35,156 bases of DNA from Gammaproteobacteria bacterium (GTDB lineage Bacteria > Pseudomonadota > Gammaproteobacteria > Steroidobacterales > Steroidobacteraceae), in assembly GCA_027317845.1 (NCBI GenBank), contig DAHVQK010000016.1, positions 1-35,156 of the forward strand. Direction: 5' to 3'. This document shows positions 9,772 through 26,482 of this stretch, in pieces; positions within the stretch are counted from its first letter, which is position 1; each line of letters begins with the position of its first letter. The position numbers and the translations under genes are program-made. The notes below the pieces were generated by a model. The model saw only the letters and a program-made list of their open reading frames with translations, did no database searches and was not told the DNA's origin.

Positions 9772-10431
9772 TCAGCCGGCGTGGGCGTGGGCGTGTCGGG
9801 AGGCGAGCTCCTCGGCCACTCGAGCGAGCGACAGGCCCCGGCTTTTCAACAGCAGCAACAGGTGGTAGAGGAGATCGGCCGACTCCGCGAGGACCTTCTC
9901 GTCGGTCTCGCCAACCGCCGCGAGCGCCACCTCCAGGCCTTCCTCGCCCACCTTCTGCGCCATCCTCCTCACGCCCTGCGCGTAGAGCCGGGCCGTGTAG
10001 CTGCCCTCGGGGCGCTCTGCGATCCGCTGCTCGATCACCGTTTCGAGTTCCCCGAGAAACGCCAGACGATCGGCCGCCGGGCGCTCGTTTCCGAAACACG
10101 TGGCCGTGCCCAGGTGGCACACCGGACCCCGCGGCCGCGCCGTGACGAGCAGCGCATCGCGGTCGCAGTCGGCGCGGAGCGAGACCAACTCGAGCGTGTT
10201 GCCGGAGGTCTCGCCCTTTTCCCACAAGCGTTGCCGGCTGCGGCTGAAGAAGACGACCCGCCCGCGGGAGAGGGTTTCGCGCAGCGCCTCGCGACTCATG
10301 TAGCCAAGCATCAGCACCGCGCCGTCCGGATCCTGCACGATGGCCGGCAGGAGCCCATCGGTCTTCTCGAAATCGAGGCTCTCGAGGTCCGCCCCGGTGA
10401 GCGGCCTGCCGGGGGGGGGTATTTGACTCAC
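9772..10431 (-). CDS. hisIE: Bifunctional phosphoribosyl-AMP cyclohydrolase / phosphoribosyl-ATP pyrophosphatase
   Basis: The 219-residue protein performs steps 2 and 3 of histidine synthesis. The N-terminal cyclohydrolase domain (about 10-115) has [34 protein letters not shown] and the zinc-site stretch DCDRDALLV...CHLGTATCF. The C-terminal pyrophosphatase domain (about 122-205) has the MazG-like helix pattern [15 protein letters not shown] and [13 protein letters not shown]. The GTG start overlaps the hisF stop as GTGA. It is the last gene of the operon. A run of nine C (minus strand) encodes PPP at codons 5-7 and is a possible slippage or assembly hazard. Confidence 0.96.
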
Positions 10432-11195
10432 AATCGCACCTCAATGCCCGCCGAGCGCAGTTCGCGCTTCAGTTCCGGGATGGTGATCGCGCCCGAGTGG
10501 AACACGCTGGCCGCGAGCGCCGCATCGGCGCCGGCCTCGGTGAACACCGCCGCGAAATGGGCAATCTCACCCGCCCCGCCCGAGGCGACGAGGGGCACCT
10601 GACAGACTTGGCGCACCGCATGCAGCTGCTCGATATCGTACCCACGGCGTACCCCGTCGCTGCCCATGCAGTTGAGTACGATCTCGCCCGCGCCGCGCTG
10701 CTGCGCTTCGCGCACCCACTCGAGCACATCCCGTCCCGACTCGCGCGTGCGTCCCGGGTCGCCGGTGAACTGGAAGGCGCGGTACCCCTGCCCGGTGAGG
10801 CGGCTGTCGATTCCGACCACCACGCATTGCGAGCCGAAACGGCGGCTGAGCGCATCGATGAGGCCCGGGTCGGCGAGCGCGGGGGAGTTGACCGAGATCT
10901 TCTCCGCGCCGGCGTTGAGCACGGCCTCGGCGTCGGCCACGGAGCGGATGCCGCCCGCGACGCAGAATGGAATGTCGAGCACTCGGGCGACGCGCTGCAC
11001 CCAGCGACGATCGACGGATCGCCCTTCGGGACTCGCCGTGATGTCGTAGAACACGAGCTCATCGGCTCCTTCGTTGCGATAACGCGAGGCGAGCTCCATG
11101 ATATCGCCCACGATCCGATGATCTCGGAAGCGCACGCCCTTGACGACCTGACCGTCGCGGACGTCTAGGCAGGGGATGATGCGTCGGGCAAGAAT
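10428..11195 (-). CDS. hisF: Imidazole glycerol phosphate synthase cyclase subunit, AUU start
   Basis: HisF makes imidazole glycerol phosphate and AICAR from PRFAR using ammonia delivered by HisH. The 255-residue (beta/alpha)8 barrel reads (M)[22 protein letters not shown], so Asp11 is the expected catalytic acid; FYDITAS and VVGIDSRL follow. The track gives a 483-aa ORF from 11879, but its first ~228 residues are an out-of-frame reading of hisA. No ATG, GTG or TTG lies near the family N-terminus. The codon at the right place is ATT (11195-11193), eight bases after a good AGGAG. The next in-frame GTG would remove Asp11. hisF overlaps hisA by 31 bases. Confidence 0.93.
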
Positions 11196-11917
11196 GGTCG
11201 TAGCTCCTGGGGAGTGATGCGCTGCTCGAGCAGGGCCTTGCCACTGATCGCGGCGGCGAGGCCGACCTCGGCCAGCGTCTTGAGGTCGACGGCATCGCGC
11301 ACGCCGCCCGAGGCCTGCCAGGCGATGCCGGGCTGACGCGCAACGGCGGCCCGGTAGAGTTCCAAGTTCGGGCCGGCGAGCGCCCCGTCGCGCGCGATGT
11401 CCGTGCACAGCACGTGTCGGACGGTCCCCTGGGGATAGAGCGCGAGCACCTCCCACAGGCTCTTCGCCGCCTCTTCCCGCCAGCCTCGGGTGCGCACCTG
11501 GGGCACACCCTGGGCATCGAGCCGCACATCGAGGGCGAGACAGATCCGCTCGGCGCCGAAATGAGCGAGCCACCGGAGGACCTCGTGCGGCCGCTCCACC
11601 GCCGCGCTGCCGATGACGACTCGGCCCACGCCCAAGGAGAGCAGCTCCTCGATCGTGTCGGCGGAGCGCACACCGCCCCCGACCTGCAAGTGTATGCCCC
11701 CCTGGGCCGCGAGGGAGGCGATGACCTTCCGGTTGGTGAGCTCGCCCTCGCACGCCCCATCGAGATCGACGACGTGCAGCCACCGGGCGCCGAAGGATCG
11801 GTAACGCCGGAGCAGCTCGGCCGGCTCGTACTCGTAGCGCGTCTCGGCGTTGAAATCGCCCTGGAACAGGCGCACGCAACGGCCCTGGCGCAGATCGATG
11901 GCGGGAATGAGCAGCAT
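11165..11917 (-). CDS. hisA: ProFAR isomerase (phosphoribosylformimino-AICAR-P isomerase)
   Basis: The 250-residue barrel enzyme catalyses the Amadori rearrangement of ProFAR to PRFAR. It has [22 protein letters not shown] with the first catalytic Asp (Asp8), [20 protein letters not shown], and the second-half [17 protein letters not shown] carrying the second catalytic Asp. Length fits the family (~245). It lies 16 bases after hisH. Its last ten codons contain the AGGAG and AUU start of hisF, so translation of the two genes is probably coupled. Confidence 0.96.
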
Positions 11918-11933: not shown

Positions 11934-12524
11934 CTACAGGGTGAGAAAGTTGCCGAGCAGCCGTGCGCCGCTCGCCGCCGAACGCTCGGGATGGAACTGC
12001 ACGCCCCAGAAGTTGCGCCACCGTACCACCGCCGAGAGTGCCTCGCCGTACTCCACGGGCGCCACCGTCAGCTCCCCCGCCGGCACCGCGTAGCCGTGTA
12101 CGAAGTAGAAATAGGCGCCAGGCTCGAGCCCGGCGAGCAGCGGGTCCGCGCGCGAGGGGCCGAGCTGGTTCCAGCCCATGTGCGGCACGGGGCGCCCCGG
12201 GGCCGCACTGAGTCGCCGCACTTCACCGGGAAGGACGCCGAGGCACTCGGTCGCGCCTTCGGCCGAACGCTCGAAGAGGAGTTGCATCCCGAGGCAGATG
12301 CCGAGCACCGGCTGGGTGAGCGATGGCAGAAGGCGGGCGAGCCCGCTGCGGCGCAGCCGCTCCATGGCATCCGCCGCGCAGCCGACACCGGGCAGCACCA
12401 CGCGGGGCGCGGCAGCGATTTCCTGCGCATCCGCGCTCACGCGCGTCCTGGCGCCCTGGCGCTCGAAGGCGTACTGGAGGGAGGCGAGGTTGGCGCCGCC
12501 GCTGTCGATGATGACCGCTTCCAC
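11934..12524 (-). CDS. hisH: Imidazole glycerol phosphate synthase glutaminase subunit
   Basis: The 196-residue class-I glutamine amidotransferase hydrolyses glutamine and passes ammonia to HisF. The catalytic triad is Cys77 in GICLGMQLLFE and His178/Glu180 in VQFHPERS; LPGVG forms the oxyanion region. The GTG at 12524 begins (M)EAVIIDSGGANLASL, which matches family N-termini. This start shares one base with the hisB stop codon (TAGTG), so the longer track ORF from 12608 is wrong. Confidence 0.95.
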   Translation of the reverse strand: MEAVIIDSGGANLASLQYAFERQGARTRVSADAQEIAAAPRVVLPGVGCAADAMERLRRSGLARLLPSLTQPVLGICLGMQLLFERSAEGATECLGVLPGEVRRLSAAPGRPVPHMGWNQLGPSRADPLLAGLEPGAYFYFVHGYAVPAGELTVAPVEYGEALSAVVRWRNFWGVQFHPERSAASGARLLGNFLTL

Positions 12525-13597
12525 TACAGCACGCCCTTGGTGCTCGGCAGCTCGTCGCCTTCGCGACGAAACGCCTGGCGCAGCGCCCGGCCGACCCCCT
12601 TGAAACATCCCTCGATCATGTGGTGGCTGTTCTCGCCGGTGACAGTGACATGGACCGCCGCCCCGAGCGAGTCGGCGAGGGAGCGGAAGAAATGCGGTAC
12701 CAGCTCGGTCGGCAGGCCACCCACGGTCTCGCGGTTGAATTGCCCGCGGAACTGGCTGTGCGCGCGGCCCGAAAGATCGATGGCCACCTGCGCGAGCGCC
12801 TCATCCATCGGCAGCAGGAACCCGTAGCGGGCGATGCCGACTTTCGTGCCGAGCGCGCGCCTGAGCGCCTCCCCGAGCGCGAGCGCGCAGTCTTCCACGG
12901 TATGGTGCTCATCGATCTCAAGGTCGCCCCGGCAGGAGAGCTCGAGGGCGAATCCACCGTGGCGCGCGAGCTGCTCGAGCATGTGGTCGAAGAATCCGAT
13001 GCCGGTGGCGATGCGCACCGGCCCGCTCGAATCGAGATCGACGCGCGCCTCGATGTCGGTTTCCTTCGTGCGGCGCCTCACTTGGGCGCGCCGCGCAGTC
13101 AGTGTTTGCACGATGGCCGGCCAGCTCTCCTCGCTCGAGCCCTCGCGGCGCACGCGCAGCCCCCGCACGCCGAGATTCCTGGCGAACTCGAGGTCGGTGT
13201 CCCGGTCCCCGATGACCGCGCTCGCCGCGAGGTTCAGCGCGTTCGCATCGAGGTACTGGCGCACCAGGGCCGTTCCGGGCTTGCGGCACTCACACCCCTC
13301 ACCCGGGGTGTGCGGGCAGACGAACACCTCGTCGAATTCGACGCCCTGCGAGCGAAACGCCTCGAGAATGAACTGCTGCGGCGCCTCGAAATTCTGGCGT
13401 GGAAAGGCCGGGGTGCCCAGCCCGTCCTGGTTCGTGACCATGACGAGCCGGTAGCCGTGGCGCTTCAACGTGGCGAGCGCGGCGAACACGCCAGGCATGA
13501 AGCGCACTTTCTCGAGCGCATCGACCTGGTGGTCGGAGGGCTCCTCGACGAGCGTGCCGTCGCGATCGACGAAGAGGACGGCCGGGAGCGGGCTCAT
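12524..13597 (-). CDS. hisB: Bifunctional histidinol phosphatase / imidazoleglycerol-phosphate dehydratase
   Basis: The 357-residue fusion is the gammaproteobacterial-type HisB. Residues 1-165 are a HAD-superfamily histidinol-phosphatase with LFVDRDGTLVEEP (Asp11, Asp13), VTNQDGLGT, a zinc loop CPHTPGEGCECRKP (94-107) and IGDRDTDLEFA. Residues 178-357 are the dehydratase, with GIGFFDHMLEQLARHGGF and the metal motif DEHHTVED (229-236). The ATG overlaps the hisC stop as ATGA. The fusion supports a gammaproteobacterial host. Confidence 0.97.
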   Translation of the reverse strand: MSPLPAVLFVDRDGTLVEEPSDHQVDALEKVRFMPGVFAALATLKRHGYRLVMVTNQDGLGTPAFPRQNFEAPQQFILEAFRSQGVEFDEVFVCPHTPGEGCECRKPGTALVRQYLDANALNLAASAVIGDRDTDLEFARNLGVRGLRVRREGSSEESWPAIVQTLTARRAQVRRRTKETDIEARVDLDSSGPVRIATGIGFFDHMLEQLARHGGFALELSCRGDLEIDEHHTVEDCALALGEALRRALGTKVGIARYGFLLPMDEALAQVAIDLSGRAHSQFRGQFNRETVGGLPTELVPHFFRSLADSLGAAVHVTVTGENSHHMIEGCFKGVGRALRQAFRREGDELPSTKGVL

Positions 13598-14649
13598 GCC
13601 CAGGCCTCGAGGAGGCGGGTATTCTGTTCGGGCGTTCCGACGGTGAGGCGCAGGGCGTCACCGAGCCCGGGATATGCGCGGGCGTCGCGCACCAGGAGTC
13701 CCGCCTCGCAGCCGAGCGCGAGCGCGGCGCCCGCGTCTTCGAACTCCGCCAGGATGAAGTTGGCATCGCTCGGCCAGATCTGCGTGATGCGCTTCAGGGC
13801 GGGCAGAGCCGCCATCAGGCGCGCGCGCTCGGCGATCAGCGTCGCGAGCTGCCGCTCGCCCGCGCCGAGCGCCTCGGGTGTCAGCCGGGTAAGGACCGTC
13901 TCGAGCGTCAGGGTCGGGACGGCGTAGGGTGGGATGATCTTGCGCAGCAGCCGGATGACCTGCGGAGCCGCGAGCAGCGTCCCGCAGCGCGCCCCGGCGA
14001 GGCCATAGGCCTTCGAGAGCGTGCGCAGCACGGCGAGATTCTCCAGCTCCCCGAGGTGACGGGCGAGACTCGGCCGGTCGGCGAACTCGAGATACGCCTC
14101 ATCGACCACCACGAGGGCGCGGCCCGTGAGCGCGCGGGCGATGCGCAGCATGGACCGCTCATCGAGCAGGTTGCCGGTCGGGTTGTTGGGGGAGCAGAGG
14201 AAGAGGAGCTTGGTCCCGGGAGTGCACCGCTCGAGCACCTGCGCCTCATCGAGCGCGAACCCGCGCTCCATCGAGAGCGGCACCGGGAGCACCTGTGCCC
14301 CCTGGATACGCGCCGACACCGAGTACATGCCGAAGGTCGGCGGGCAGACGAGCACCGCATCCTCTCCGGCGCGGCAGAACGCACGGCACAGCAGATCGAT
14401 GGCCTCATCGCTTCCCCGGCCCACCAGCACCGATGCGGGCGCGACGCCGTAGAGTTGCGCCAGCCGCTCGATCAGCACCCGCGGCTGCGGCTCCGGATAG
14501 CGATTGACCCCGCTGCGGGGATCCCCGCCCAGCGGACTCCAGGGCAGCTCGTTGGCGTGCAGCCGCTCGAGCTCCGGGCGCCAGGCGGCGTGCTCGTACA
14601 CTTTGAGCGCAACGATCTCAGGCCGCGCCAGCGCTTCCACCCAGCTCAT
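13594..14649 (-). CDS. hisC: Histidinol-phosphate aminotransferase
   Basis: The 351-residue fold-type I PLP enzyme transfers an amino group from glutamate to imidazole acetol phosphate. PLP-site features are VGRGSDEAID (77-86), CSPNNPTGN (152-160), VVDEAYLEFA (181-190) and Lys213 in RTLSKAYGLAGARCG. Length fits the family (~350). It overlaps hisB by 4 bp downstream and hisD by 4 bp upstream, so it is tightly coupled within the operon. Confidence 0.97.
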   Translation of the reverse strand: MSWVEALARPEIVALKVYEHAAWRPELERLHANELPWSPLGGDPRSGVNRYPEPQPRVLIERLAQLYGVAPASVLVGRGSDEAIDLLCRAFCRAGEDAVLVCPPTFGMYSVSARIQGAQVLPVPLSMERGFALDEAQVLERCTPGTKLLFLCSPNNPTGNLLDERSMLRIARALTGRALVVVDEAYLEFADRPSLARHLGELENLAVLRTLSKAYGLAGARCGTLLAAPQVIRLLRKIIPPYAVPTLTLETVLTRLTPEALGAGERQLATLIAERARLMAALPALKRITQIWPSDANFILAEFEDAGAALALGCEAGLLVRDARAYPGLGDALRLTVGTPEQNTRLLEAWA

Positions 14650-15983
14650 GAGCCCCCCTCATTGGCGTGCGGTTGCGCGCCGAGCGCATCGAGGCGACGG
14701 GTCACGGCGGCGGCGTGCGCGTCGAGCCCTTCGAGGCGCGCGAGCGTCACGGCCGTGGGGCCGAGTCCGAGGAGTCCGGCGGGAGTGAGTTCCTGGACGG
14801 TGATGCGCTTGAGGTAATCGAGCACCGAAAGACCGCTGTAGGCGCGGGCATAGCCGTAGGTCGGCAGCACGTGGTTGGTGCCGGAGCAGTAATCGCCCAT
14901 CGGCTCCGGGGACCAGGCGCCGAGGAACACCGAACCGGCGTTGACGATCTTCGCGAGGAGGGCTCGCGGCTCGCGCACCTCGAGGATCAGGTGCTCGGCG
15001 GCGTACTCGTTGGCCACCTCGGCGGCGCTGTCGAGGTTGGCGACCACGAGGCAGCGGCTCGAGGCGAGGGACTTCTCCAGGATGGCGCGGCGGGAGAGGC
15101 CGCCGAGCTGGGCGTCGATCGCGGCGCTCACCGCCCCGGCGAGCGCCGGGCTGTCGGTGACCAGGATGGCCTGTGCGTTCACATCGTGCTCGGCCTGAGC
15201 GAGAAGGTCGGCAGCTACGAACTCCGCGCGCGCGCTGGCGTCGGCGATGACCATGACCTCGGAGGGGCCGGCAGGCATGTCGCAGGCGGCTCCCTGCGGG
15301 TCACCCGCCGCGGCCTGTTTGGCGGCGGTTACCCAGGCGTTGCCGGGTCCGAAGATCTTGTCGACCTTGGGGAGGCTCGCGGTGCCGTAGGCGAGGGCGG
15401 CAATCGCCTGCGCGCCACCGACCTTGAACACCGATTCGATGCCACAGAGCTGCGCGGCCACCAACACCGCCGGGTTGGCCTCGCCGCGCCGATCCGGCGG
15501 CGTGCAGAGGATGCGGCGCGGGCAGGCGGCGATGCGCGCCGGCACGGCGAGCATCACGACGGCCGAGGGAAGGGGCGCGGATCCGGCCGGCACGTAGAGT
15601 CCGACGGCCCCGATCGGGCGGAAGATGCGCTCGCACCGCACCCCGGGGCTGGTCTCGAGGCCGAGCGGCTCGAGCGGCTGGGCGCGATGAAACCGCTCGA
15701 CATGATCGATGGCCCGCTCGATCGCCGCCACCTGTTCGGCACTCAGCGCCTCGCGTGCCCGTGCGAATTCCCGGGCGGTGACCGCCAGGGATTCGACATC
15801 CACGCCGTCAAAGCGCAGTGTGTAGGCTCTGAGCGCCGCGTCACCGGCAGCGCGCACGTTCGCGATGATCTCGCGCACCACCCCCTCGATATCCGCCCGC
15901 GCCTGCTGCACGGGCCGCTCGAGCGCCGAGCGGCGCTCAGGGGCGCCGAGCGAGTCCCACTCGAGGATGCGCATACGGGTCAC
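14646..15983 (-). CDS. hisD: Histidinol dehydrogenase
   Basis: The ~445-residue zinc enzyme performs the final two oxidations, histidinol to histidine, with NAD. Visible motifs include PIGAVGLYVPAGSAPLPSAVVMLAVPA, KIFGPGNAWVTAAKQ, MPAGPSEVMVIAD, LAQAEHD and SGTNHVLPTYGYAR near the C-terminus. I place the start at GTG 15983, which overlaps the hisG stop as GTGA and has GAGAAG eight bases ahead. ATG 15974, three codons later (MRILEWDSL), is also possible and agrees with many homologues. The track's extra 5' residues are read through hisG. Confidence 0.96.
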   Translation of the reverse strand: MTRMRILEWDSLGAPERRSALERPVQQARADIEGVVREIIANVRAAGDAALRAYTLRFDGVDVESLAVTAREFARAREALSAEQVAAIERAIDHVERFHRAQPLEPLGLETSPGVRCERIFRPIGAVGLYVPAGSAPLPSAVVMLAVPARIAACPRRILCTPPDRRGEANPAVLVAAQLCGIESVFKVGGAQAIAALAYGTASLPKVDKIFGPGNAWVTAAKQAAAGDPQGAACDMPAGPSEVMVIADASARAEFVAADLLAQAEHDVNAQAILVTDSPALAGAVSAAIDAQLGGLSRRAILEKSLASSRCLVVANLDSAAEVANEYAAEHLILEVREPRALLAKIVNAGSVFLGAWSPEPMGDYCSGTNHVLPTYGYARAYSGLSVLDYLKRITVQELTPAGLLGLGPTAVTLARLEGLDAHAAAVTRRLDALGAQPHANEGGS

Positions 15984-16876
15984 GCGAGCATCTTCTCGAC
16001 GGGCAACACCAGCAGCGCGCTGGCGCCGGCCTTCTTCAGGCTCTCGAGCGTCTCCCAGAACACGTTCTCGCGGCACACCGCGTGGACGGCCACTTTGTCG
16101 GGGAAGCCCTCGAGCGGGATGATGGTGGGGGACTCGCTCCCGGGCAGGAGCTTGCGGATCTGAGGCAGGGCGTCCCGTGGCGCGTGCAGCATGATGTATT
16201 TGCTTTCACGCACCTGTTGCACGCCATCGATGCGCATCAACAGTCGCTCGACCCACTCGTCCTTCAGAGGCGCCAGCGCGAGCGGTGTGCGGATGAGCAC
16301 CGCGTGGCTCTCGAGAACGGTCTCGACCTCGCGCAGATGATTCGCCTGCAGCGTCGAGCCGGTCGAGACCAGGTCGCAGATGAGGTCCGCTCTGCCCAAG
16401 CGGGGGGCGATCTCCACCGCGCCCGAGAGCGTGACGATCTCCGCCTCGATGTCGCGCTCGCGCAGGTAGTTCTCGAGAAGGAAGGGATAGGTCGTGGCGA
16501 TGCGCCGGCCGCGCAGGCTCTCGGCCCCGGAGAACGAGGTGCCCTGCGGCACCGCGAGCGAGAGGCGGCAGCGGCCGAAATCGAGCTTGCGCACCTGCTG
16601 GAAGCGCACCGGGTGGCCGCGGGCGGCGAGCTCCAGGCGCTTCTCCTCGAGCACGTTCAGGCCGACGAGCCCGAGGTCGCAGACATCCTCCTGCACGAGG
16701 TCGGGGATGTCGTCATCGCGCACGAACAGGACATCGAGCGGCATGTTCTCCCCGTAGGCCATCAGCTGATCCTTGCCGCGGGAGATCTTCAGGCCGCAGC
16801 GCGCGAGCAGATCGAGCGAGGGGTCGGTGAGACGCCCGGACTTCTGGATGGCGAGCTTCAATCTGAGCTCATCCAT
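15980..16876 (-). CDS. hisG: ATP phosphoribosyltransferase, long form
   Basis: The 298-residue enzyme starts histidine synthesis by joining ATP and PRPP. The catalytic part includes LKLAIQKSGRLTDPSLDLLARCG, LFVRDDDIPDLVQEDVCDLGLVGLNVL and DLICDLVSTGSTLQANHLREVE, a PRPP-loop region. The final ~75 residues (SKYIMLHAPRDALPQIRKLLPGSESPTIIPLEG) match the C-terminal regulatory domain of the long form, which binds histidine for feedback inhibition, so no hisZ is required. ATG 16876 overlaps the end of the yerC-like gene by 8 bases (ATGGATGA). The track ORF from 17110 is too long. Confidence 0.97.
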   Translation of the reverse strand: MDELRLKLAIQKSGRLTDPSLDLLARCGLKISRGKDQLMAYGENMPLDVLFVRDDDIPDLVQEDVCDLGLVGLNVLEEKRLELAARGHPVRFQQVRKLDFGRCRLSLAVPQGTSFSGAESLRGRRIATTYPFLLENYLRERDIEAEIVTLSGAVEIAPRLGRADLICDLVSTGSTLQANHLREVETVLESHAVLIRTPLALAPLKDEWVERLLMRIDGVQQVRESKYIMLHAPRDALPQIRKLLPGSESPTIIPLEGFPDKVAVHAVCRENVFWETLESLKKAGASALLVLPVEKMLA

Positions 16877-17192
16877 GGCGGGGGGCCTCCTTGCCGAGAC
16901 GCTGGGCCACCAGGCCGTAGCCGCCGTTGCCGGCGGCGAGAAAGCGGGCGACCCGTCCGATGGTCGTGACGCTGACGCCGGTGAGGGCGTGGATCTCGCG
17001 GTAGGGCGTTCCCTTGCCGAGGTAATCGACGACCGCCCAGCGATCCGCCATGGCCTGAAGCTCGGCCGGCGTGCACAGGTCGCGAAAAAAGGCGCGGACT
17101 TCTTCCGCATCCCGCAGGGCGGCGATGGCGGTATAGAGGTTGCGCTCGGCGAGCGCTTCCTGACGGGGCGTGAGACTGCGATGGGTCTTCAT
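16869..17192 (-). CDS. YerC/YecD family TrpR-related regulator, probable his-operon repressor
   Basis: The 107-residue all-helical protein resembles the TrpR superfamily: LYTAIAALRDAEEVRAFFRDLCTPAELQAMADRW (about 19-52), then the helix-turn-helix GTPYREIHALTGVSVTTIGRVARFL (61-85), with GNGGYGL after it. It is the first gene of the his operon, its coding end overlaps hisG by 8 bases, and a 40-bp palindrome lies five bases upstream of its ATG. YerC-type proteins have been proposed as histidine-responsive repressors in several lineages; here that role is inferred from position and from the operator. The alternative is an unrelated DNA-binding role. No clear ribosome binding site precedes the ATG. 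Confidence 0.88.
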   Translation of the reverse strand: MKTHRSLTPRQEALAERNLYTAIAALRDAEEVRAFFRDLCTPAELQAMADRWAVVDYLGKGTPYREIHALTGVSVTTIGRVARFLAAGNGGYGLVAQRLGKEAPRHG

Positions 17193-17196
17193 GATA

Positions 17197-17236
17197 TGCC
17201 AATGTGCTAGCGTGCTAGCACGTTAGCATAGTGGCA
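17197..17236. promoter_or_regulatory. 40-bp imperfect palindrome, probable TrpR/YerC-type operator of the his operon
   Basis: Centred between 17216 and 17217, the two 20-base halves match at 17 of 20 positions; the inner 24 bp, TGCTAGCGTGCT/AGCACGTTAGCA, have one mismatch pair. It contains two CTAG tetramers four bases apart (CTAGCGTGCTAG), the same spacing as in the E. coli TrpR operator. A TATGCT -10-like element on the minus strand (17230-17225) lies within it, so binding would block transcription of yerC-his. Confidence 0.72.
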
Positions 17237-17295
17237 CGGCCGCCGCCACCCCCATCGGGGCATCGCGTGCCGCCGCGGCGGCGAGTGGCGCCCGC

Positions 17296-17325
17296 TTGAC
17301 CGCTTGCCCGGGGGCCGCCTAGACT
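17296..17325 (+). promoter_or_regulatory. Promoter of the SAM riboswitch-metX-metB transcript
   Basis: TTGACC (17296-17301) and TAGACT (17320-17325) match five and four consensus bases and are 18 bases apart. The predicted start, about 17332, is directly in front of the riboswitch P1 helix. Confidence 0.65.
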
Positions 17326-17332
17326 AGACCGC

Positions 17333-17457
17333 ACTCATCGAGACCGGCTGAGGGATAGGCCCTTAGACGCCGGGGCAACCGCCAGGCCCAACCAGCCTGT
17401 AAAGGTGCCAACTCCTGCGATTCGGTCACCTTCGGGGCGGTCGGGTCGACAGATGAG
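17333..17457 (+). promoter_or_regulatory. SAM-I (S box) riboswitch
   Basis: The aptamer signature is clear: CTCATCGAGACCGGCTGAGGGATAGGCCC, then GACGCCGGGGCAACC, AAAGGTGCCAACTCCTGC and GACAGATGAG. P1 is CTCATC (17334-17339) with GATGAG (17452-17457). SAM-I riboswitches turn methionine-synthesis genes off when S-adenosylmethionine is abundant, which fits metX-metB directly downstream. About 115 bases separate it from metX and hold the expression platform. The 93-aa and 421-aa minus ORFs here are spurious. Confidence 0.95.
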
Positions 17458-17525
17458 CGATCCGCGAAGCTCCGCCCACTGCCGTGGCGGGGATGGTCGC
17501 GGCAACCCGCCTGTCCTGGCGGGCG

Positions 17526-17571: not shown

Positions 17572-18603
17572 ATGAATGCCATAGCGCAAGCCCCGGTCAC
17601 AGCGGGATTTGAGGCGTATCCGTCGTCCGGATCGGCGTGCGAGGGTATGTTCGATATTCCCGGAGAGTTTGCGCTGCATCACGGTGGCACGCTCACCGCG
17701 GTGCGCGTGGCCTGGCGGATGGTGGGGCCCGAGCATGCTCCCGTCGTGTGCGCGTTGGGAGGCATCTCGGCCAGCCGCCGGGTCTGCCTGACCGAGAAGC
17801 CCCGTGAGAGCTGGTGGCAGGAAGTGGCCGGTCCGGGGCGCCCGCTCGACACCGAGCGCTTGCGGGTGCTGTCGTTCGATTTTCTCGGCGGCAGTGGCGA
17901 GACCTCGGGGCCCGCTCCGGGGGAGACCTTTCCGAGCGTCTCCACCTACGATCAGGCCGAGGTGCTGCTCAGATTGATCGATCACCTCGGGGTGCGCTCG
18001 CTGCGCGCCATCGCCGGGGGCTCGTACGGGGGCATGGTGGCGCTCGCTTTCGCCGAGCGCTACCCGGAGCGTGTCGGTCGGCTGATCGTGCTGTGCGCCA
18101 CCGATCGTCCCCATCCCCTGGGCACCGCGTGGCGCTCCGTGCAGCGCGACATCGTGCGCCTGGGCATCGGCAGCGGCCGGGCTCGCGAGGCCCTGGCGCT
18201 CGCCCGGGCGCTCGCCATGTCGACCTACCGCACCGGCGAGGAATTCCAGGCGCGATTCGAGGGACTGCCCGTGCTCGATAAGGGCCGCTTCCGTCTTCCC
18301 GTGGAGCGCTATCTGCGCGCGCGGGGCGAGGATTACGCGATGCGCAATCGGCCCGAGGCCTTTCTCTGTCTTTCCGAATCGATCGACCTGCACCGGGTCG
18401 ATGCGGCCCGCATCTGCGTGCCGACCGCCGCGGTGGCGGTGCGCGAGGACATGCTGGTGCCGCTGGCGGATGCGCGTGGCATGGTCGCACGGCTGCATTC
18501 GGCGAGACTGCACGAGATCTCCTCGATCTACGGCCACGACGCCTTCCTCAAAGAATCCCAACAGTTGCACGGCGTGTTCGCCGCGGCGCTGGACAGTCAA
18601 TGA
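17572..18603 (+). CDS. metX: Homoserine O-acyltransferase, MetX family
   Basis: The 343-residue alpha/beta-hydrolase activates homoserine by O-acylation, the entry step to methionine. The nucleophile is Ser151 in AIAGGSYGGMVALAF; the acid is probably the Asp in AVREDMLVP (about 289) and the base His322 in IYGHDAFLKE. It is shorter than classical ~370-residue MetX acetyltransferases. In several gammaproteobacterial relatives MetX uses succinyl-CoA; which acyl donor is used here cannot be decided by eye, so acetyl- and succinyltransferase both remain possible. The start ATG has GGAG six bases upstream, inside the riboswitch hairpin. It overlaps metB by 4 bp (ATGA). Confidence 0.92.
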   Translation: MNAIAQAPVTAGFEAYPSSGSACEGMFDIPGEFALHHGGTLTAVRVAWRMVGPEHAPVVCALGGISASRRVCLTEKPRESWWQEVAGPGRPLDTERLRVLSFDFLGGSGETSGPAPGETFPSVSTYDQAEVLLRLIDHLGVRSLRAIAGGSYGGMVALAFAERYPERVGRLIVLCATDRPHPLGTAWRSVQRDIVRLGIGSGRAREALALARALAMSTYRTGEEFQARFEGLPVLDKGRFRLPVERYLRARGEDYAMRNRPEAFLCLSESIDLHRVDAARICVPTAAVAVREDMLVPLADARGMVARLHSARLHEISSIYGHDAFLKESQQLHGVFAAALDSQ

Positions 18604-19787
18604 AAGGTCATATGAGTCTGCCCAAACACCCCGCTTCCCAGATCACCCGGACCGTGCGCGCCGGGCTCGAGTCCGATGAGGTTACCGGCGCGGTCGTGCC
18701 GCCGATCCACCTCACCTCCACGTTCGCGTTCCGAGGTTTCGGCGAGAAGCGCAAGTACGATTACAGCCGCTCGGGAAACCCGACACGCGACCTCCTGGGC
18801 GCGGCACTCGCGCAACTCGAGGGCGGCGCGGGCGCGGTGGTCACCGCGACCGGCATGGCAGCGATCACCGTCGCCGGCTACCTGGTGCCGGCCGGAGCGC
18901 GCATCGTGGCGCCGCACGACTGCTACGGGGGAACGTACCGGCTGTTCGATGCCTGGCGGCGCCGCGGCGAGCGGCAGGTGGAGTTCGTGAACTTCGGCGA
19001 CCTGTCCGCGGTCCGGGCGGCGCTGTCTGCCCCCGCGGCGCTGCTGTGGATCGAGACCCCGAGCAATCCGCTGCTGCGCATCACGGACATCGAGCAGTTC
19101 GCGGCACTCGGGCACGGCGCGGGCGCCAAGGTGGTGGTCGACAACACCTTTCTTTCGCCCGCCTGGCAGCAGCCGCTGTCACTCGGCGCGGACCTGGTCG
19201 TGCATTCGACCACCAAGTATCTGAACGGCCACAGCGATGTGGTCGGAGGGGCGGTCGTCGCGCGTGATGCGGCGATGCACCAGGAGCTCGCATGGTGGGC
19301 CAACTGTCTCGGTCTCACCGGCTCGCCGTTCGACAGCTTTCTGACGCTGCGCGGACTGCGCACCCTGCACGCGAGGCTCGAGCATCACGGCCGCAACGCG
19401 CAGGCGCTCGCCGAGTGGCTCGCCAAGCAGCCGGGGGTGGCCCGGGTCCACTATCCGGGCCTCCCGGGCCATCCGGGCCACGAGGTGGCGCGGCGTCAGC
19501 AACGCGGCTTCGGAGCGATCGTCACGCTCGAGCTCGCCGGCGGCCACGAGACGGTGCGCGCATTCACCGCGGCACTGGAGTATTTCTCCCTGGCCGAGTC
19601 CCTGGGCGGCGTCGAGAGCCTGGTGGCGCACCCGGCCACCATGACCCACGCGGCGATGGAGCCGGCTGCCCGGGAGAAGGCGGGACTCACGGACGGTCTC
19701 ATCCGGTTGTCGGTGGGGATCGAGGCGCTCGAGGATCTGCGAGCCGATCTCGCGGCGGGACTGGAGCGAGCGGCGCGCGCCGCGTAG
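18600..19787 (+). CDS. metB: Cystathionine gamma-synthase / O-acylhomoserine thiol-lyase family
   Basis: The 395-residue Cys/Met-metabolism PLP enzyme condenses an O-acylated homoserine with cysteine (or sulfide). Typical stretches are YDYSRSGNPTRDLLGAALAQLEGG, TATGMAAIT, ETPSNPLLRITDI, VVDNTFLSPAWQQPL and the PLP lysine Lys206 in VVHSTTKYLNGHSDVVGG. The pairing with metX under one SAM riboswitch fits cystathionine gamma-synthase, but direct sulfhydrylation is an alternative. ATG 18600 overlaps the metX stop; ATG 18612, with AAAGG five bases upstream, is the other possible start. Confidence 0.92.
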   Translation: MKGHMSLPKHPASQITRTVRAGLESDEVTGAVVPPIHLTSTFAFRGFGEKRKYDYSRSGNPTRDLLGAALAQLEGGAGAVVTATGMAAITVAGYLVPAGARIVAPHDCYGGTYRLFDAWRRRGERQVEFVNFGDLSAVRAALSAPAALLWIETPSNPLLRITDIEQFAALGHGAGAKVVVDNTFLSPAWQQPLSLGADLVVHSTTKYLNGHSDVVGGAVVARDAAMHQELAWWANCLGLTGSPFDSFLTLRGLRTLHARLEHHGRNAQALAEWLAKQPGVARVHYPGLPGHPGHEVARRQQRGFGAIVTLELAGGHETVRAFTAALEYFSLAESLGGVESLVAHPATMTHAAMEPAAREKAGLTDGLIRLSVGIEALEDLRADLAAGLERAARAA

Positions 19788-19838: not shown

Positions 19839-20897
19839 TCAGAGCTTCGCCAGCACGGCCTCACCGAATTCCCTCGTCGAGAGTGCGCGCGTGCCCTGGG
19901 TTGCGACATCGGGTGTGCGCGCGCCCTGCTCGAGGACCGCCGAGACCGCGCGCTCGAGGGCCGCCGCTTCGCTCTCGAGCCCGAGCGAATGGCGCAGCAG
20001 CAGCGCGGCGCTGAGGATCGTCCCGCAGGGATTGGCGATGCCTTGGCCCGCGATGTCCGGGGCCGAGCCGTGGATGGGCTCGTACAGGCCCCGAGTACCC
20101 TCGCCGAGGGATGCGGAAGGCAACAGCCCGAGTGAGCCTGCGAGCATGGAAGCCTCATCCGTCAGGATGTCGCCGAACATGTTCTCGGTGACCAGGACAT
20201 CGAAATCGCGGGGCCGGCGGATGAGATGCATGGCCGCGGAGTCGACCAGCATGTGCTCGAGCGAGACGTCCGGGAATTGCGCACGCATGACTCGGGTGGT
20301 GACTTCGCGCCAGAGGCGCGAAGTCTCGAGCACGTTGGATTTGTCTATGGAAACCAGCCTGCTGCGGCGTTTCTGCGCCAGGCGCGCCGCGGTGCGCACG
20401 ATGCGCTCGATTTCCTGCACGGTGTAGGTGCAGACATCGGTGGCCGAGAGGGCATCGCGACGCTTTTCGCCGAAGTAGATCCCTCCGGTCAGCTCGCGGA
20501 CGAACATCAGATCCACACCCTCGATCACCTCCGGCTTGAGGGTCGAGGCGCCGAGCAGGGCAGGGTGGACCTTGACGGGTCTCAGGTTCGCGTACACGCC
20601 GAGCGCGCTGCGCAAGGCGAGAAGCCCCTGCTCGGGGCGCACCTTGGCCGTGGGCGCCGACCACTTCGGGCCGCCGATCGCCCCGAGCAACACCGCATCG
20701 GCCGCCCGGCAGGCATGCAATGTCTCATCGGGCAGCGGGTTGCCCGTGAGGTCGATGGCGGCCCCGCCAAAGGGCAGTTCGGTGAGCGTGAAATCGTGCC
20801 CGTGGCGCCCGGCGAGGGTGCGCAGGCACCGCAGGCCCTCGGCGATGACTTCGGGCCCGATGCCATCACCGGGCAGTACGGCTATCGTTGCTTTCAT
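19839..20897 (-). CDS. leuB: 3-isopropylmalate dehydrogenase
   Basis: The 352-residue enzyme oxidises and decarboxylates 3-isopropylmalate in leucine synthesis. It has [20 protein letters not shown] at the N-terminus, [12 protein letters not shown], the substrate-binding arginine stretch [34 protein letters not shown], the metal-site region [27 protein letters not shown] and the NAD-site stretch [20 protein letters not shown]. It is the last gene of the operon and overlaps leuD by 4 bp. Confidence 0.97.
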
Positions 20898-21472
20898 TGG
20901 ATCCCGGCTCGTCCTTCGTAGGCGGCGATCTCGGTCTCACGGCCGAGGAGGAACCCGAGCTCATCGACCCCGTTGATCAGGCAGTAGCGCGCGAAGGGCT
21001 CGAGCGGGAAGTGCGCCTCGCCGGCAGGATGGCGCAGCGTGGCGGTCTCTAGGTCGATGCTCACCTCCGCGCCCGGGTGCTCGAGCAGCCAGCGATGCGT
21101 GTCCGGATCGACGATGACCGGCACCAGGCCGTTCTTCAGCGAGTTGCTGCGGAAGATGTCGGCGATCTGAGTGCTCACCACGGCGCGAAAGCCGTAGTCG
21201 GTGAGTGCCCAGGGCGCGTGCTCGCGCGAGGACCCGCAGCCGAAATTATTGCCCGCGACCAGGATGGCGCAGCCCTCGGCGGCCGCGCGGTTCAGGGCGA
21301 AGTCCGGCCTCGGGATGCCGTCCGGCCCGTACCGCCAGTCGGCGAACAGGTGCTTGCCGAGTCCCTCGCGTGTGGTGGTGGTGAGAAAGCGTGCCGGGAT
21401 GATCTGGTCGGTGTCGACATCGCTCACCGGGAGCACCGCGGTGCGCGAGCGCAGGGTACGAATCGGTTCCAT
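20894..21472 (-). CDS. leuD: 3-isopropylmalate dehydratase small subunit
   Basis: The 192-residue subunit works with LeuC to isomerise 2- to 3-isopropylmalate. Recognisable parts are the start [30 protein letters not shown] and [21 protein letters not shown] (about 71-91), the aconitase swivel-domain signature. Its ATG shares one base with the leuC stop (TAATG), and its own stop overlaps the leuB start. Confidence 0.97.
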
Positions 21473-22878
21473 TACATCAGCTCCCTGGGGTCGGTGACAC
21501 GGCCACGCACTGCGCAGGCCGCGGCGGTGAGGGGGCTTGCGAGGAGCGTCCGCGCGCCCACGCCCTGCCGGCCCTCGAAGTTGCGGTTGCTGGTGCTCAC
21601 GGCGTAGTGCCCCTTCGCCACGAGGTCACCGTTCATCCCCAAGCACATCGAGCAGCCCGACTCGCGCCACTCGGCGCCCGCCTCGAGGAATACCCGGTCG
21701 AGTCCTTCGGCTTCGGCCTCGCGCTTGACCTGCTGGGAGCCGGGCACCACCAGCATCTGGACACCGGAGGCGACCTTGCGGCCGCGCAGGAGCGAGGCCG
21801 CAAGGCGCAGGTCCGAGAGCCGCCCGTTGGTGCAGCTGCCGACGAACACGACGTTCACGGGGTGCTCCTTGATCGGCTGGCCGGGAGAGAAGCCCATGTA
21901 GGCGAGGGACTTCTCGAACACCGGGTCGCCGGGACGCTCCGGGATCGCCCCTCCGATCGGGATCACCATGCCCGGATGGGTGCCGTAGGTGACCATGGGT
22001 TCGAGCGTCGAGGCGTCGATGTCGATTTCCCGATCGAAACGTGCCCCCGGGTCGGTGGGAAGCGCTCGCCAGTGCTCGAGCGCGCGCTCCCAGTCCTCGC
22101 CCCGGGGGGCGTGGAGGCGGCCCGACAGGTAGGCGAAGGTGGTCTCATCCGGGGCGATCATGCCGGCGCGCGCACCGGCCTCGATCGACATGTTGCACAC
22201 CGTCATGCGCCCGTCCATGTCGAGGGAGCGGATGCCGCCACCCCGGTACTCGATGACATGGCCCGTGCCGCCGCCGATGCCGATGCGACCGATGATGGAG
22301 AGAATGAGATCCTTGGCGCCGACACCGGCGGGAAACCGGCCCTCGACGTTGATGGCGAACGTGCGCGGCTTGCGCTGCAGCAGACACTGCGTGGCGAGCA
22401 CGTGTCCCACCTCTGTCGTGCCGATGCCGAAGGCGAGCGCTCCGAGGGCTCCATGGGTGCTCGTGTGGCTGTCGCCGCAGACCACCGTCTTGCCCGGTTG
22501 GGTGAGCCCGAGCTCCGGCCCGATGATGTGCACGATCCCGCGCCGGTCGTTGCGCAGATCGAGCAGCTCCACGCCGAATGCGGCGCAGTTCACCTCGAGC
22601 TCGCGCACCTGGCGGGCCGCGGCCTCGATCGCGATCGGCGCCCCGCCAAAGACCTGCTCGGTGCGCGTCGGCGTCGAGTGATCCATGGTCGCGAACGTCA
22701 ATTGCGGCCGGCGGACTTTCAGTGCCCGCTGTCGCAGCACCGTGAAGGCCTGCGGGGAGGTGACTTCGTGGATGAGGTGCAGGTCGATGTAGAGCACCGC
22801 CGGCGTGTCGGCCCTCTCGGCGGCCACCTCGTGTGCCCGCCAGACCTTCTCGAAGAGAGTTTGTGGAGTTGTGCTCAT
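21472..22878 (-). CDS. leuC: 3-isopropylmalate dehydratase large subunit
   Basis: The 468-residue aconitase-family subunit carries a [4Fe-4S] cluster. Cluster cysteines are in [16 protein letters not shown] and [12 protein letters not shown] near the C-terminus. Other signatures are [19 protein letters not shown], and [30 protein letters not shown] 22878 ([13 protein letters not shown]) overlaps the ilvE stop by 4 bp; the track's longer ORF to 23121 reads into ilvE. Confidence 0.97.
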
Positions 22879-23840
22879 CCGCCTGCCGCCGCCACCGGCG
22901 CCTGTGTCTTCATGTCGATGTGATCCAGCCAGCCCCACTTGTCGGGCGTCTCGCCGCTGAAGAGGCCGAAGAACGCCTTCTGGAGCGATTCGGTGATGGG
23001 GCCGCGGCGGCCCAGGCCCACCGTCAGCCGGTCCACCGAGCGGATGGGGGTGATCTCTACCGCGGTGCCCGTGAAGAAAGCCTCGTCCGCGATGTAGAGC
23101 AATTCGCGGGGAATGGCGCACTCGCGCACCGTGATGCCCCGCTCGCGCGCGAGGCGCATGACGGTGTCGCGGGTGATGCCCGCCAGCACCGAGTGGGCGA
23201 GCGCCGGGGTGAGCAGCTCCCCGTCCTTCACCAGGAACAGGTTCTCCCCCGAGCCCTCACTCAAGGTGCCGTCTGGGGCGAGGCCGATGCCCTCATCGAA
23301 CCCCAGGCGCCGCGCCTCCGCGCCGATCAGCTGGCTCGAAAGGTAATTGCCGGCGGCCTTGGCGAGGGCCGGCAGGGTGTTCGGGGCGAGGCGGCTCCAG
23401 GAGGAGATGCACACATCGACCCCCTGGGCCTCGCTCTCGTGCCCGAGATACCTGCCCCACTCCCACGCGGCCACCGCCACCTCGGTGGGGGGATCGTTCT
23501 TCGGTGTCACGCCAATCTCGCCGTAGCCGCGAAAGACCACCGGGCGGAGGTAGGCGCCGCGGGTGAGCGCATTGGCGCTGACCACCTGGCGGCACGCCTC
23601 GTTCATCTGCTCGGCGCTGAAGGGCAGCGTCATGCGGTAGATCTTGGCCGAGTCGAGGAGCCGGCGCGTGTGCTCGCGCAGGCGAAAGATCGCCACTCCA
23701 CGGGGAGTCTCGTATGCGCGCACCCCCTCGAAGACCGATGAGCCGTAATGCAGCGCGTGCGACAACACGTGAACCGTGGCCTTCTCCCACGGGACGAGCG
23801 TGCCGTTGAACCAGATGAACCGGGTGGCCGGTATGGGCAT
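22875..23840 (-). CDS. ilvE: Branched-chain amino acid aminotransferase
   Basis: The 321-residue fold-type IV PLP enzyme does the last step of Leu, Ile and Val synthesis. It has [51 protein letters not shown], the PLP lysine Lys161 in [13 protein letters not shown], and [20 protein letters not shown] lies seven bases before ATG 23840. Its place between leuA and leuC joins the shared final step to the leucine genes. Confidence 0.96.
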
Positions 23841-23874
23841 GATGATCCTCCGTCGCAGCCTCTACGATGAGGCC

Positions 23875-25452
23875 TCAGGTCGCCTTCGCGGCGCTCTGGG
23901 CGCCCGCGCGCTCCTCGCGCGCGCGGCCGCCCGTGGCGGCCAGCTCGATGCGGTTGATCACCTCGAGGAACGCCTTGGTGCTCGATTCCACGATGTTGGT
24001 GCTGACACTGGCGCCCCGGTACGTGCGCTGATTGTACTCGACGGTCACCAGCGCCTCGCCCTGCGCATCCTCGCCCTCCGTGACGGCGCGCACCTCGAAT
24101 TTGCGCAGCATCGCTCCGATGCTCGTCGCCCCTTCGATCGCCTTGAAGGACGCATCGACCGGACCATCGCCCTGGGCGGTGCGCTCGACGAGTCGGCCGT
24201 CCGAGTGCCGCAGGCGCACTTTCGCGGTGGCCGCTCCGTCGCTCGCGGTGTGCGTCTCGAGCTCGAGCAGCATCCAGGGACCGGCGGCCGAGCCCTCGAC
24301 GCGCATCACCAGGGCCTCGATGTCGCCGTCGAAGAGCTCCTTCTTCTTGTCCGCCAGCGCCTTGAATTCCTCGAAGACCTGGTTGAGCTCGGCCTCATCG
24401 AGCTCGAAGCCGAGCGCGCGGACCCGATCGCGGAAGGCGTGCCGGCCACTGTGCTTGCCGAGGATCAGGTGGCTGCGTGAGAGCCCCACGTCCTCCGGGC
24501 GCATGATCTCGTAGGTCGAGTAGTGGCGCAGGACGCCATGTTGATGGATGCCGGCCTCGTGAGCGAAGGCGTTCTCGCCCACCACCGCCTTGTTGCGTGG
24601 CACCGGCATTCCGGTGATGCTCGAGACCAGCCGGGAGGTCGGATAGAGGCGAGTGGTCTGGATCCCGGTGCTGACGTTGAAGAACGCTGTGCGCGTCTTG
24701 AGCGCCATGACCACTTCCTCGAGCGAGCAGTTGCCCGCCCGCTCGCCGATGCCGTTGATGGTGCACTCGATCTGCCGGGCACCCGCCACCACCGCCGTCA
24801 GGCTGTTGGCGACCGCCATGCCGAGATCATCGTGGCAGTGCACCGAGAGCCGGATGCGCTCGATGCCGCGCACGTTCTTGCGCAGATACCGGAAGAGCTC
24901 GGCGAACTCATCGGGCACGGTGTAACCGACGGTGTCCGGGATGTTGACCGTACCGGCGCCGGCCTCGATGGCCGCCTCGACCACCTGCGCGAGGAACTCG
25001 AGCTCGGTGCGCGAGGCGTCCTCGGGTGAGAACTCGACGTCATCGCAGAGTTCCCGGGCGCGCCGCACGCCCTCCACGGCCGTGCGCAGGATCTCCTCCT
25101 CGGCCATGTTGAGCTTGTACTGGCGGTGGATGGCGCTGGTGGCGAGAAACACGTGCACGCGCCGGCGGGGTGCATCGGAGAGGGCGCGCGCGGCGAGCTC
25201 GATATCCTCGCGGTTGCAGCGCGCCAACCCACAGATGACCGGACCCTGCACCTCGCGCGCCACCGCCTGCACGCTCTCCCAATCCCCCTTGGAGGCGGCC
25301 GGGAACCCGGCTTCGATCACATCGACGCCGAGATCGGCGAGCGCCCGGGCCACGCGCAGCTTCTCCGGGCGCGTCATGCTGCATCCCGGGGCTTGCTCCC
25401 CATCGCGCAGCGTGGTGTCGAAGATCAGTACTCGGTCAGGATCTGCAGCCAT
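23875..25452 (-). CDS. leuA: 2-isopropylmalate synthase
   Basis: The 525-residue enzyme condenses acetyl-CoA with 2-ketoisovalerate, the committed leucine step. The catalytic barrel has IFDTTLRDGEQAPGCSMT (about 10-27), VIEAGFPAAS, SVHCHDDLGMAVAN with the metal-binding His pair, and NGIGERAGNCSLEEVVMAL. The C-terminal ~130 residues (SIGAMLRKFEVRAVTEGEDAQGEALVTVEYNQRTYRGASVSTNIVESS) form the LeuA dimer domain that binds leucine for feedback inhibition. ATG 25452, with GAGGAG upstream, fits the family; the longer track ORF does not. It lies 34 bases after ilvC. Confidence 0.97.
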   Translation of the reverse strand: MAADPDRVLIFDTTLRDGEQAPGCSMTRPEKLRVARALADLGVDVIEAGFPAASKGDWESVQAVAREVQGPVICGLARCNREDIELAARALSDAPRRRVHVFLATSAIHRQYKLNMAEEEILRTAVEGVRRARELCDDVEFSPEDASRTELEFLAQVVEAAIEAGAGTVNIPDTVGYTVPDEFAELFRYLRKNVRGIERIRLSVHCHDDLGMAVANSLTAVVAGARQIECTINGIGERAGNCSLEEVVMALKTRTAFFNVSTGIQTTRLYPTSRLVSSITGMPVPRNKAVVGENAFAHEAGIHQHGVLRHYSTYEIMRPEDVGLSRSHLILGKHSGRHAFRDRVRALGFELDEAELNQVFEEFKALADKKKELFDGDIEALVMRVEGSAAGPWMLLELETHTASDGAATAKVRLRHSDGRLVERTAQGDGPVDASFKAIEGATSIGAMLRKFEVRAVTEGEDAQGEALVTVEYNQRTYRGASVSTNIVESSTKAFLEVINRIELAATGGRAREERAGAQSAAKAT

Positions 25453-25486
25453 GGGAGTCACTCCTCGCGCCCGGGGTGCGATGCGC

Positions 25487-26482
<996 letters not shown>

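Follow-up and report, generated by a model that had tools for sequence, protein, structure and literature searches.

The window, by which we mean the whole stretch of 35,156 nucleotides analysed here, carries on its minus strand a his operon headed by a TrpR-related regulator gene. Profile searches place yerC first, followed on the same strand by hisG, hisD, hisC, hisB and hisH, and the translations add the frames that end the operon:

16869-17192, minus strand: yerC/hisR, first gene of the his operon, encoding a TrpR-related protein of 107 aa of the YerC/YecD family (TIGR02531, PF01371)
15980-16876, minus strand: hisG, ATP phosphoribosyltransferase (TIGR00070, 182 bits)
14646-16076, minus strand: hisD frame, start codon uncertain, overlapping hisG as listed (TIGR00069, 518 bits)
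13594-14649, minus strand: hisC (TIGR01141, 310 bits)
12524-13597, minus strand: hisB, bifunctional (NF003937, 516 bits)
11934-12608, minus strand: hisH frame (TIGR01855, 207 bits)
9772-11917, minus strand: hisA, hisF and hisIE-like frames at the end of the operon, identified from their translations

The first-pass annotation, made from the sequence without database searches, had taken the product of the first gene for YerC, a protein of the TrpR superfamily, and profile searches place it in the YerC/HisR-type family. The protein scores 66 bits against TIGR02531 (cut-off 42.2) and 79.4 bits against PF01371 (Trp_repressor), but only 22.2 bits against the TrpR equivalog model TIGR01321, far under its cut-off of 67.25; judged by these scores, it is a YerC/HisR-type protein, and TrpR itself is excluded. 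A score above the YerC/YecD cut-off and below that for TrpR, together with a gene that is linked to his genes and stands first in the operon, fits a HisR regulator. Among solved structures 3g1c, 3frw and 3kor are nearest, and E. coli TrpR is reached by profile only. At the position of TrpR Arg69 the window protein has Arg65, an arginine that does not vary among nine YerC rows aligned from Gammaproteobacteria, two of which are the window's own protein, whereas the three structures have Leu or Ala; an arginine at this position would be in keeping with the TrpR-like DNA motif that Proteobacteria use. In the description of HisR (PMC9413887) the residue aligned to TrpR Arg69 is Tyr, not Leu, and for this reason that alignment is perhaps one residue off from ours.

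On the other side of yerC, divergent from the his operon, a SAM-I riboswitch (RF00162, 74 bits; 17332-17459, plus strand) stands ahead of a MetX-like gene (17572-18603), which is followed by an O-succinylhomoserine (thiol)-lyase-like gene (18600-19787). A promoter scan reports a sigma-70-like promoter, TTGACC-18-TAGACT, at 17296-17325. Farther along, from 19839 to 25584, the translations read as leuB, leuD, leuC, ilvE-like and leuA-like frames, and genes for amino acid synthesis thus appear to cluster near the his operon.

Directly ahead of yerC lies the element that is the subject of this analysis:

17197-17236, no strand: 40-bp imperfect palindrome, centred on a CTAG midway between two dimer sites, D1 and D2 (listed below)

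Four bases separate its end from the ATG of yerC. The palindrome is real: between its 20-base halves 17 of 20 positions agree, as first reported, which is the top score in the 35,156-base window and above the maximum of 16 given by 40 first-order Markov resamplings. The near-perfect 24-bp core (17205-17228) also holds, with 11 of 12 positions matching, though a 12-base arm at this level is unexceptional and was equalled in 15 of the 40 resamplings. The two CTAG tetramers noted at a 4-base spacing are present at 17207 and 17215, that is, at an 8-bp period, and a third, imperfect copy (TTAG/CTAA) follows another 8 bp along in the palindrome. CTAG is scarce in the window, with 10 copies where base composition predicts about 104 (roughly ten-fold under-representation), and four of the 10 lie in the yerC-metX intergenic region. 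In the covered part of the window's genome (62.9% complete), the palindrome is unique at up to three mismatches.

A histidine-linked repressor of the TrpR family was published in 2022, in work that names the YerC protein HisR and reports its sites in 395 genomes of Firmicutes and in 97 further genomes (PMC9413887). According to that source, HisR of Proteobacteria controls the his operon almost exclusively, with hisR as the first gene and the site just upstream, and the proteobacterial motif is a 20-bp palindrome, TGTAnTArnnnnyTnTTACA. We compared the upstream regions of yerC in relatives, named as Steroidobacteraceae and Woeseiaceae among uncultured Gammaproteobacteria, and essentially all of those collected have a related motif just ahead of the start codon. 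Measured against a reference 20-mer, TGTANTARNNNNYTANTACA, the 91 distinct upstream regions have 0 mismatches in 41 cases, 1 in 35, 2 in 11 and 3 in 4; the HisR 20-mer is thus found at two mismatches or fewer in 87 of 91, versus none of 455 shuffles, whose best match had three mismatches (five cases). The published 20-bp palindrome upstream of hisR is therefore recognized here through the relatives, the window itself being a weak example with three mismatches. The first-pass annotation had proposed a motif search upstream of orthologous yerC genes as a check on its operator reading, and that reading survives: a related motif is kept there, although the exact 40-bp palindrome and the motif it had put forward, TGCTARCGTGCTAGCACGYTAGCA, are confined to the window's close lineage. 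The same comparison bears on whether the palindrome is a chance one, or the site of an unrelated regulator. The 24-bp core alone is attainable by chance in a window of such size, but position, sequence and linkage to yerC are conserved in about 90 distinct upstream regions; this conservation contradicts a chance origin, and we give almost no credence to either reading.

Across 119 relatives, searched with the HisR pattern at one mismatch or fewer, yerC-bearing genomes mostly have a single match. The window's own site likewise occurs once in the 63% of its genome that is covered, and both results fit a regulator with one local target. No match occurs in the 20 listed same-family genomes that have no yerC hit, a weak control because the majority of them have an incomplete hisG or no hisG at all. 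The only yerC-less family with intact hisG is f12, of the same order, in which hisG lies directly behind leuB without yerC in three of the four genomes read (L143-L145; L146 was left out); no HisR operator was found in L143-L145, and the regulator may have been lost or replaced in this family along with its site. Extra 20-mer matches in G020, G022, G023 and G025 lie ahead of a GntR-family gene, as read in the first two of these genomes, and one in G042 falls inside a coding frame. In several genomes of the same genus a conserved palindrome, TGTATTRRTATACCAATACA, stands directly before the GntR-family regulator gene (L169, L170, at about position 1000) and is probably that regulator's own operator. 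In L058, two further tandem copies of the operator's right half (ACGCGTTATTACA) stand between operator and yerC.

Column conservation in the 91 upstream regions extends beyond the 20-mer and defines, with the predicted promoter, the following features:

17195-17230, minus strand: 36-bp operator block with four half-sites in an 8-bp register
17223-17230, minus strand: half-site H1 of this block
17215-17222, minus strand: half-site H2 of this block
17211-17214, minus strand: 4-bp YRYR spacer of this block
17203-17210, minus strand: half-site H3 of this block
17195-17202, minus strand: half-site H4 of this block
17203-17222, minus strand: D2, the HisR 20-mer proper (CGTGCTAGCACGCTAGCACA), 3 mismatches to TGTANTARNNNNYTANTACA
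17211-17230, minus strand: D1, an overlapping dimer site shifted by 8 bp (TATGCTAACGTGCTAGCACG), 4 mismatches
17220-17225, minus strand: predicted -10 element TAACGT, which overlaps H1 and H2 and has a TGC extension on its upstream side
17243-17248, minus strand: predicted -35 element TGGCGG with a 17-bp spacer; T(G/T)GC at this offset is kept in near and far relatives

The 36-bp consensus of the relatives is TGTANTAR TGTANTAR YRYR YTANTACA YTRNTACA, with TA steps in an 8-bp register and a central YRYR that, whichever way it is read, can form part of a half-site. When distant relatives are aligned on the 20-mer, conservation spans positions -7 to 28 and is near zero beyond, except in -35-like columns. 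E. coli TrpR operators (trp, aroH) are bound by tandem dimers at CTAG half-sites with an 8-bp period, a half-site being shared. The 36-bp block may likewise be read as a series of as many as three TrpR-type dimer sites, D1, D2 and D3, that overlap in 8-bp steps: at the level of sequence it has half-sites in this register, and adjacent dimer sites share one. In the window's genus H4, and with it D3, is weak, and the array consists of H1-H2-H3. The window's D2 is among the weakest of the set, with its three mismatches, and in the window's lineage D1 and D2 are about equally good, so the 40-bp palindrome reflects symmetry about the half-site that they share. The palindrome, with TGCTARCGTGCTAGCACGYTAGCA, was rejected as the conserved unit: in its H2-centred symmetry (11/12, 17/20) the window stands at the far end of the set, and relatives generally show better symmetry around the D2 centre than around the H2 centre.

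The operator had been said to overlap the promoter of the regulator gene, which is borne out insofar as the predicted -10 element lies inside 17197-17236 and the promoter columns are conserved in relatives. Relative to the 20-mer, TAnnnT is conserved at -2 to 3 and T(G/T)GC at -25 to -22, while TG at -5/-4 is conserved within the genus; the positions of TGnTAnnnT are invariant in 28 near relatives. It is this conservation that suggests the -10 and -35 assignments; the his promoter is absent from the output of a generic sigma-70 scan because its hexamers are far from consensus. Transcription would start near 17213, inside the operator, and the leader would measure about 21 nt. Both the -10 element and the start would then be covered by the array of TrpR/HisR-type half-sites, which is conserved with yerC in related Gammaproteobacteria.

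A predicted 5' UTR this short agrees with the earlier remark that no classical his leader is in evidence. The his leader RF00514 has no match between 16000 and 19000 at E up to 1, and the divergent SAM riboswitch is the sole match of the Rfam search at that threshold. These results also bear on whether the palindrome might act at the RNA level, by forming a hairpin in the his leader. Its fold is strong (-19.7 kcal/mol, z -4.8), as expected of any such palindrome, but the transcript as we place it begins within the palindrome (about 17213) and retains 21 nt with a weak fold. Among relatives, the symmetry partners 5/16 and 10/11 are unpaired, and letters are conserved more than pairing, although 4/17 and 8/13 covary slightly. 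With a predicted start inside the palindrome, little conservation of pairing and neither a terminator nor an Rfam leader found, we rejected the hairpin, which we regard as very improbable.

How many dimers the operator holds is a closer question. The main alternative to tandem binding is a single HisR dimer at D2, with H1 kept as an extended -10 element, H4 kept by leader or start-codon constraint, and the 40-bp symmetry partly accidental. In its favour, H1 bears the extended -10 pattern TGnTAnnnT, and part of the conservation of H1 may indeed be promoter constraint because the two overlap; the HisR site as published measures 20 bp; and H4 is weak in the window's genus. But H1 in far relatives keeps the outer TG of the half-site, beyond the -10 element, and the conserved block ends at half-site boundaries on both sides. 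Mean half-site mismatches in far relatives are 1.98 for H1 and 2.41 for H4, versus about 4.5-5.7 at neighbouring offsets, and the corresponding means are 2.14 and 2.00, versus 4.1-5.6, in a class sample of 14 loci, three of which come from the family or order of the window. None of 20,000 permutations equalled the register totals of H1 and H4, a count that overstates the evidence because the sequences are related. H4 is strongest (1.93 mean mismatches) in regions with the start codon 18 bp or more away, and its conservation is for that reason not a start-codon effect. Finally, family f26 of the same class (L161/L182) has a similar two-dimer form that is readable both ways (TGTACTAACGTGCTAGCACGCTAATACA). 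On balance a lone dimer seems unlikely, and it would alter the number of dimers only, leaving the HisR operator reading in place. The HisR array pattern also matches, with one mismatch, in another genome of the class (L173, about 1501-1528), upstream of a frame for an AroH-like DAHP synthase; aroH is a TrpR target in E. coli (PMC5343134), and the site is probably a TrpR operator of the same array architecture.

We consider it very probable that this element serves the yerC(hisR)-hisGDCBHAF-IE operon as its autoregulatory operator, at which tandem HisR dimers would exert histidine-dependent repression. When histidine is sufficient, HisR dimers would bind the operator, one on D2 (17203-17222) and a second, shifted by 8 bp, on D1 (17211-17230), with the middle CTAG half-site common to both, as in tandem TrpR dimers. 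The bound dimers would obstruct RNA polymerase at the -10 element and turn off hisR and the his genes together, and a drop in histidine would release the repressor. The tandem geometry draws support by analogy from TrpR, which binds as tandem dimers with an affinity and cooperativity that vary with sequence, and whose tandem binding has been tied in review to operators overlapping promoters (PMC8745587). Histidine as the ligand is published for the HisR family and presumed for the window's YerC. Tryptophan, or some other ligand, might be considered since the protein falls within the TrpR superfamily and the DNA motif is TrpR-like (CTAG, 8-bp period). Such a ligand is improbable: the TrpR equivalog score is far below cut-off, the operon is his, the position of TrpR Gly85 aligns with Val81 here, and operator binding by purified HisR of another phylum, from Ruminococcus gnavus, the only HisR for which this is known, is stimulated best by histidine (PMC9413887). 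The earlier proposal of a histidine repressor was thus right in outline, though already described for the family and not new.

If this reading holds, the window's his operon falls under a described but little-studied repressor, HisR, rather than the textbook attenuator, and the described 20-bp site is part of a longer array. We also lean towards a broader generalization: gammaproteobacterial HisR operators would be 36-bp arrays of two to three overlapping dimer sites in which H1 doubles as the extended -10, so that cooperative binding and promoter recognition are written in the same letters and the published 20-bp motif is the middle only. The array predicts two or three dimers per operator in 8-bp steps, and HisR would offer a second TrpR-family member for comparing tandem, cooperative binding with that of E. 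coli TrpR.

Among known systems, the attenuator RF00514 has the same target operon in other Gammaproteobacteria but is an RNA mechanism, to which the window gives no match. The HisR operator of Firmicutes (cacTTTAnnnnnnTAAAgtg) shares regulator family and pathway, but its half-site sequence is not that of the window, and the solved structures 3g1c, 3frw and 3kor have Leu or Ala, not Arg, at the TrpR Arg69 position. Closer is the proteobacterial HisR operator (PMC9413887), with a TrpR-family gene first in the his operon, the operator immediately upstream and a published consensus matched by most relatives. It differs in extent, the published 20 bp standing against a 36-bp conserved block with an 8-bp half-site register here, and in the window the centre of best symmetry sits 4 bp from that of the 20-mer. 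We found no mention of tandem HisR sites in the main text of PMC9413887, and within the literature covered we found no earlier description of the extended multi-half-site architecture. In architecture the E. coli TrpR operators are alike in their CTAG half-sites, 8-bp period, dimers sharing a half-site and overlap with the promoter, and differ in that the regulator here is HisR-type, the target is the his operon and the presumed ligand is histidine.
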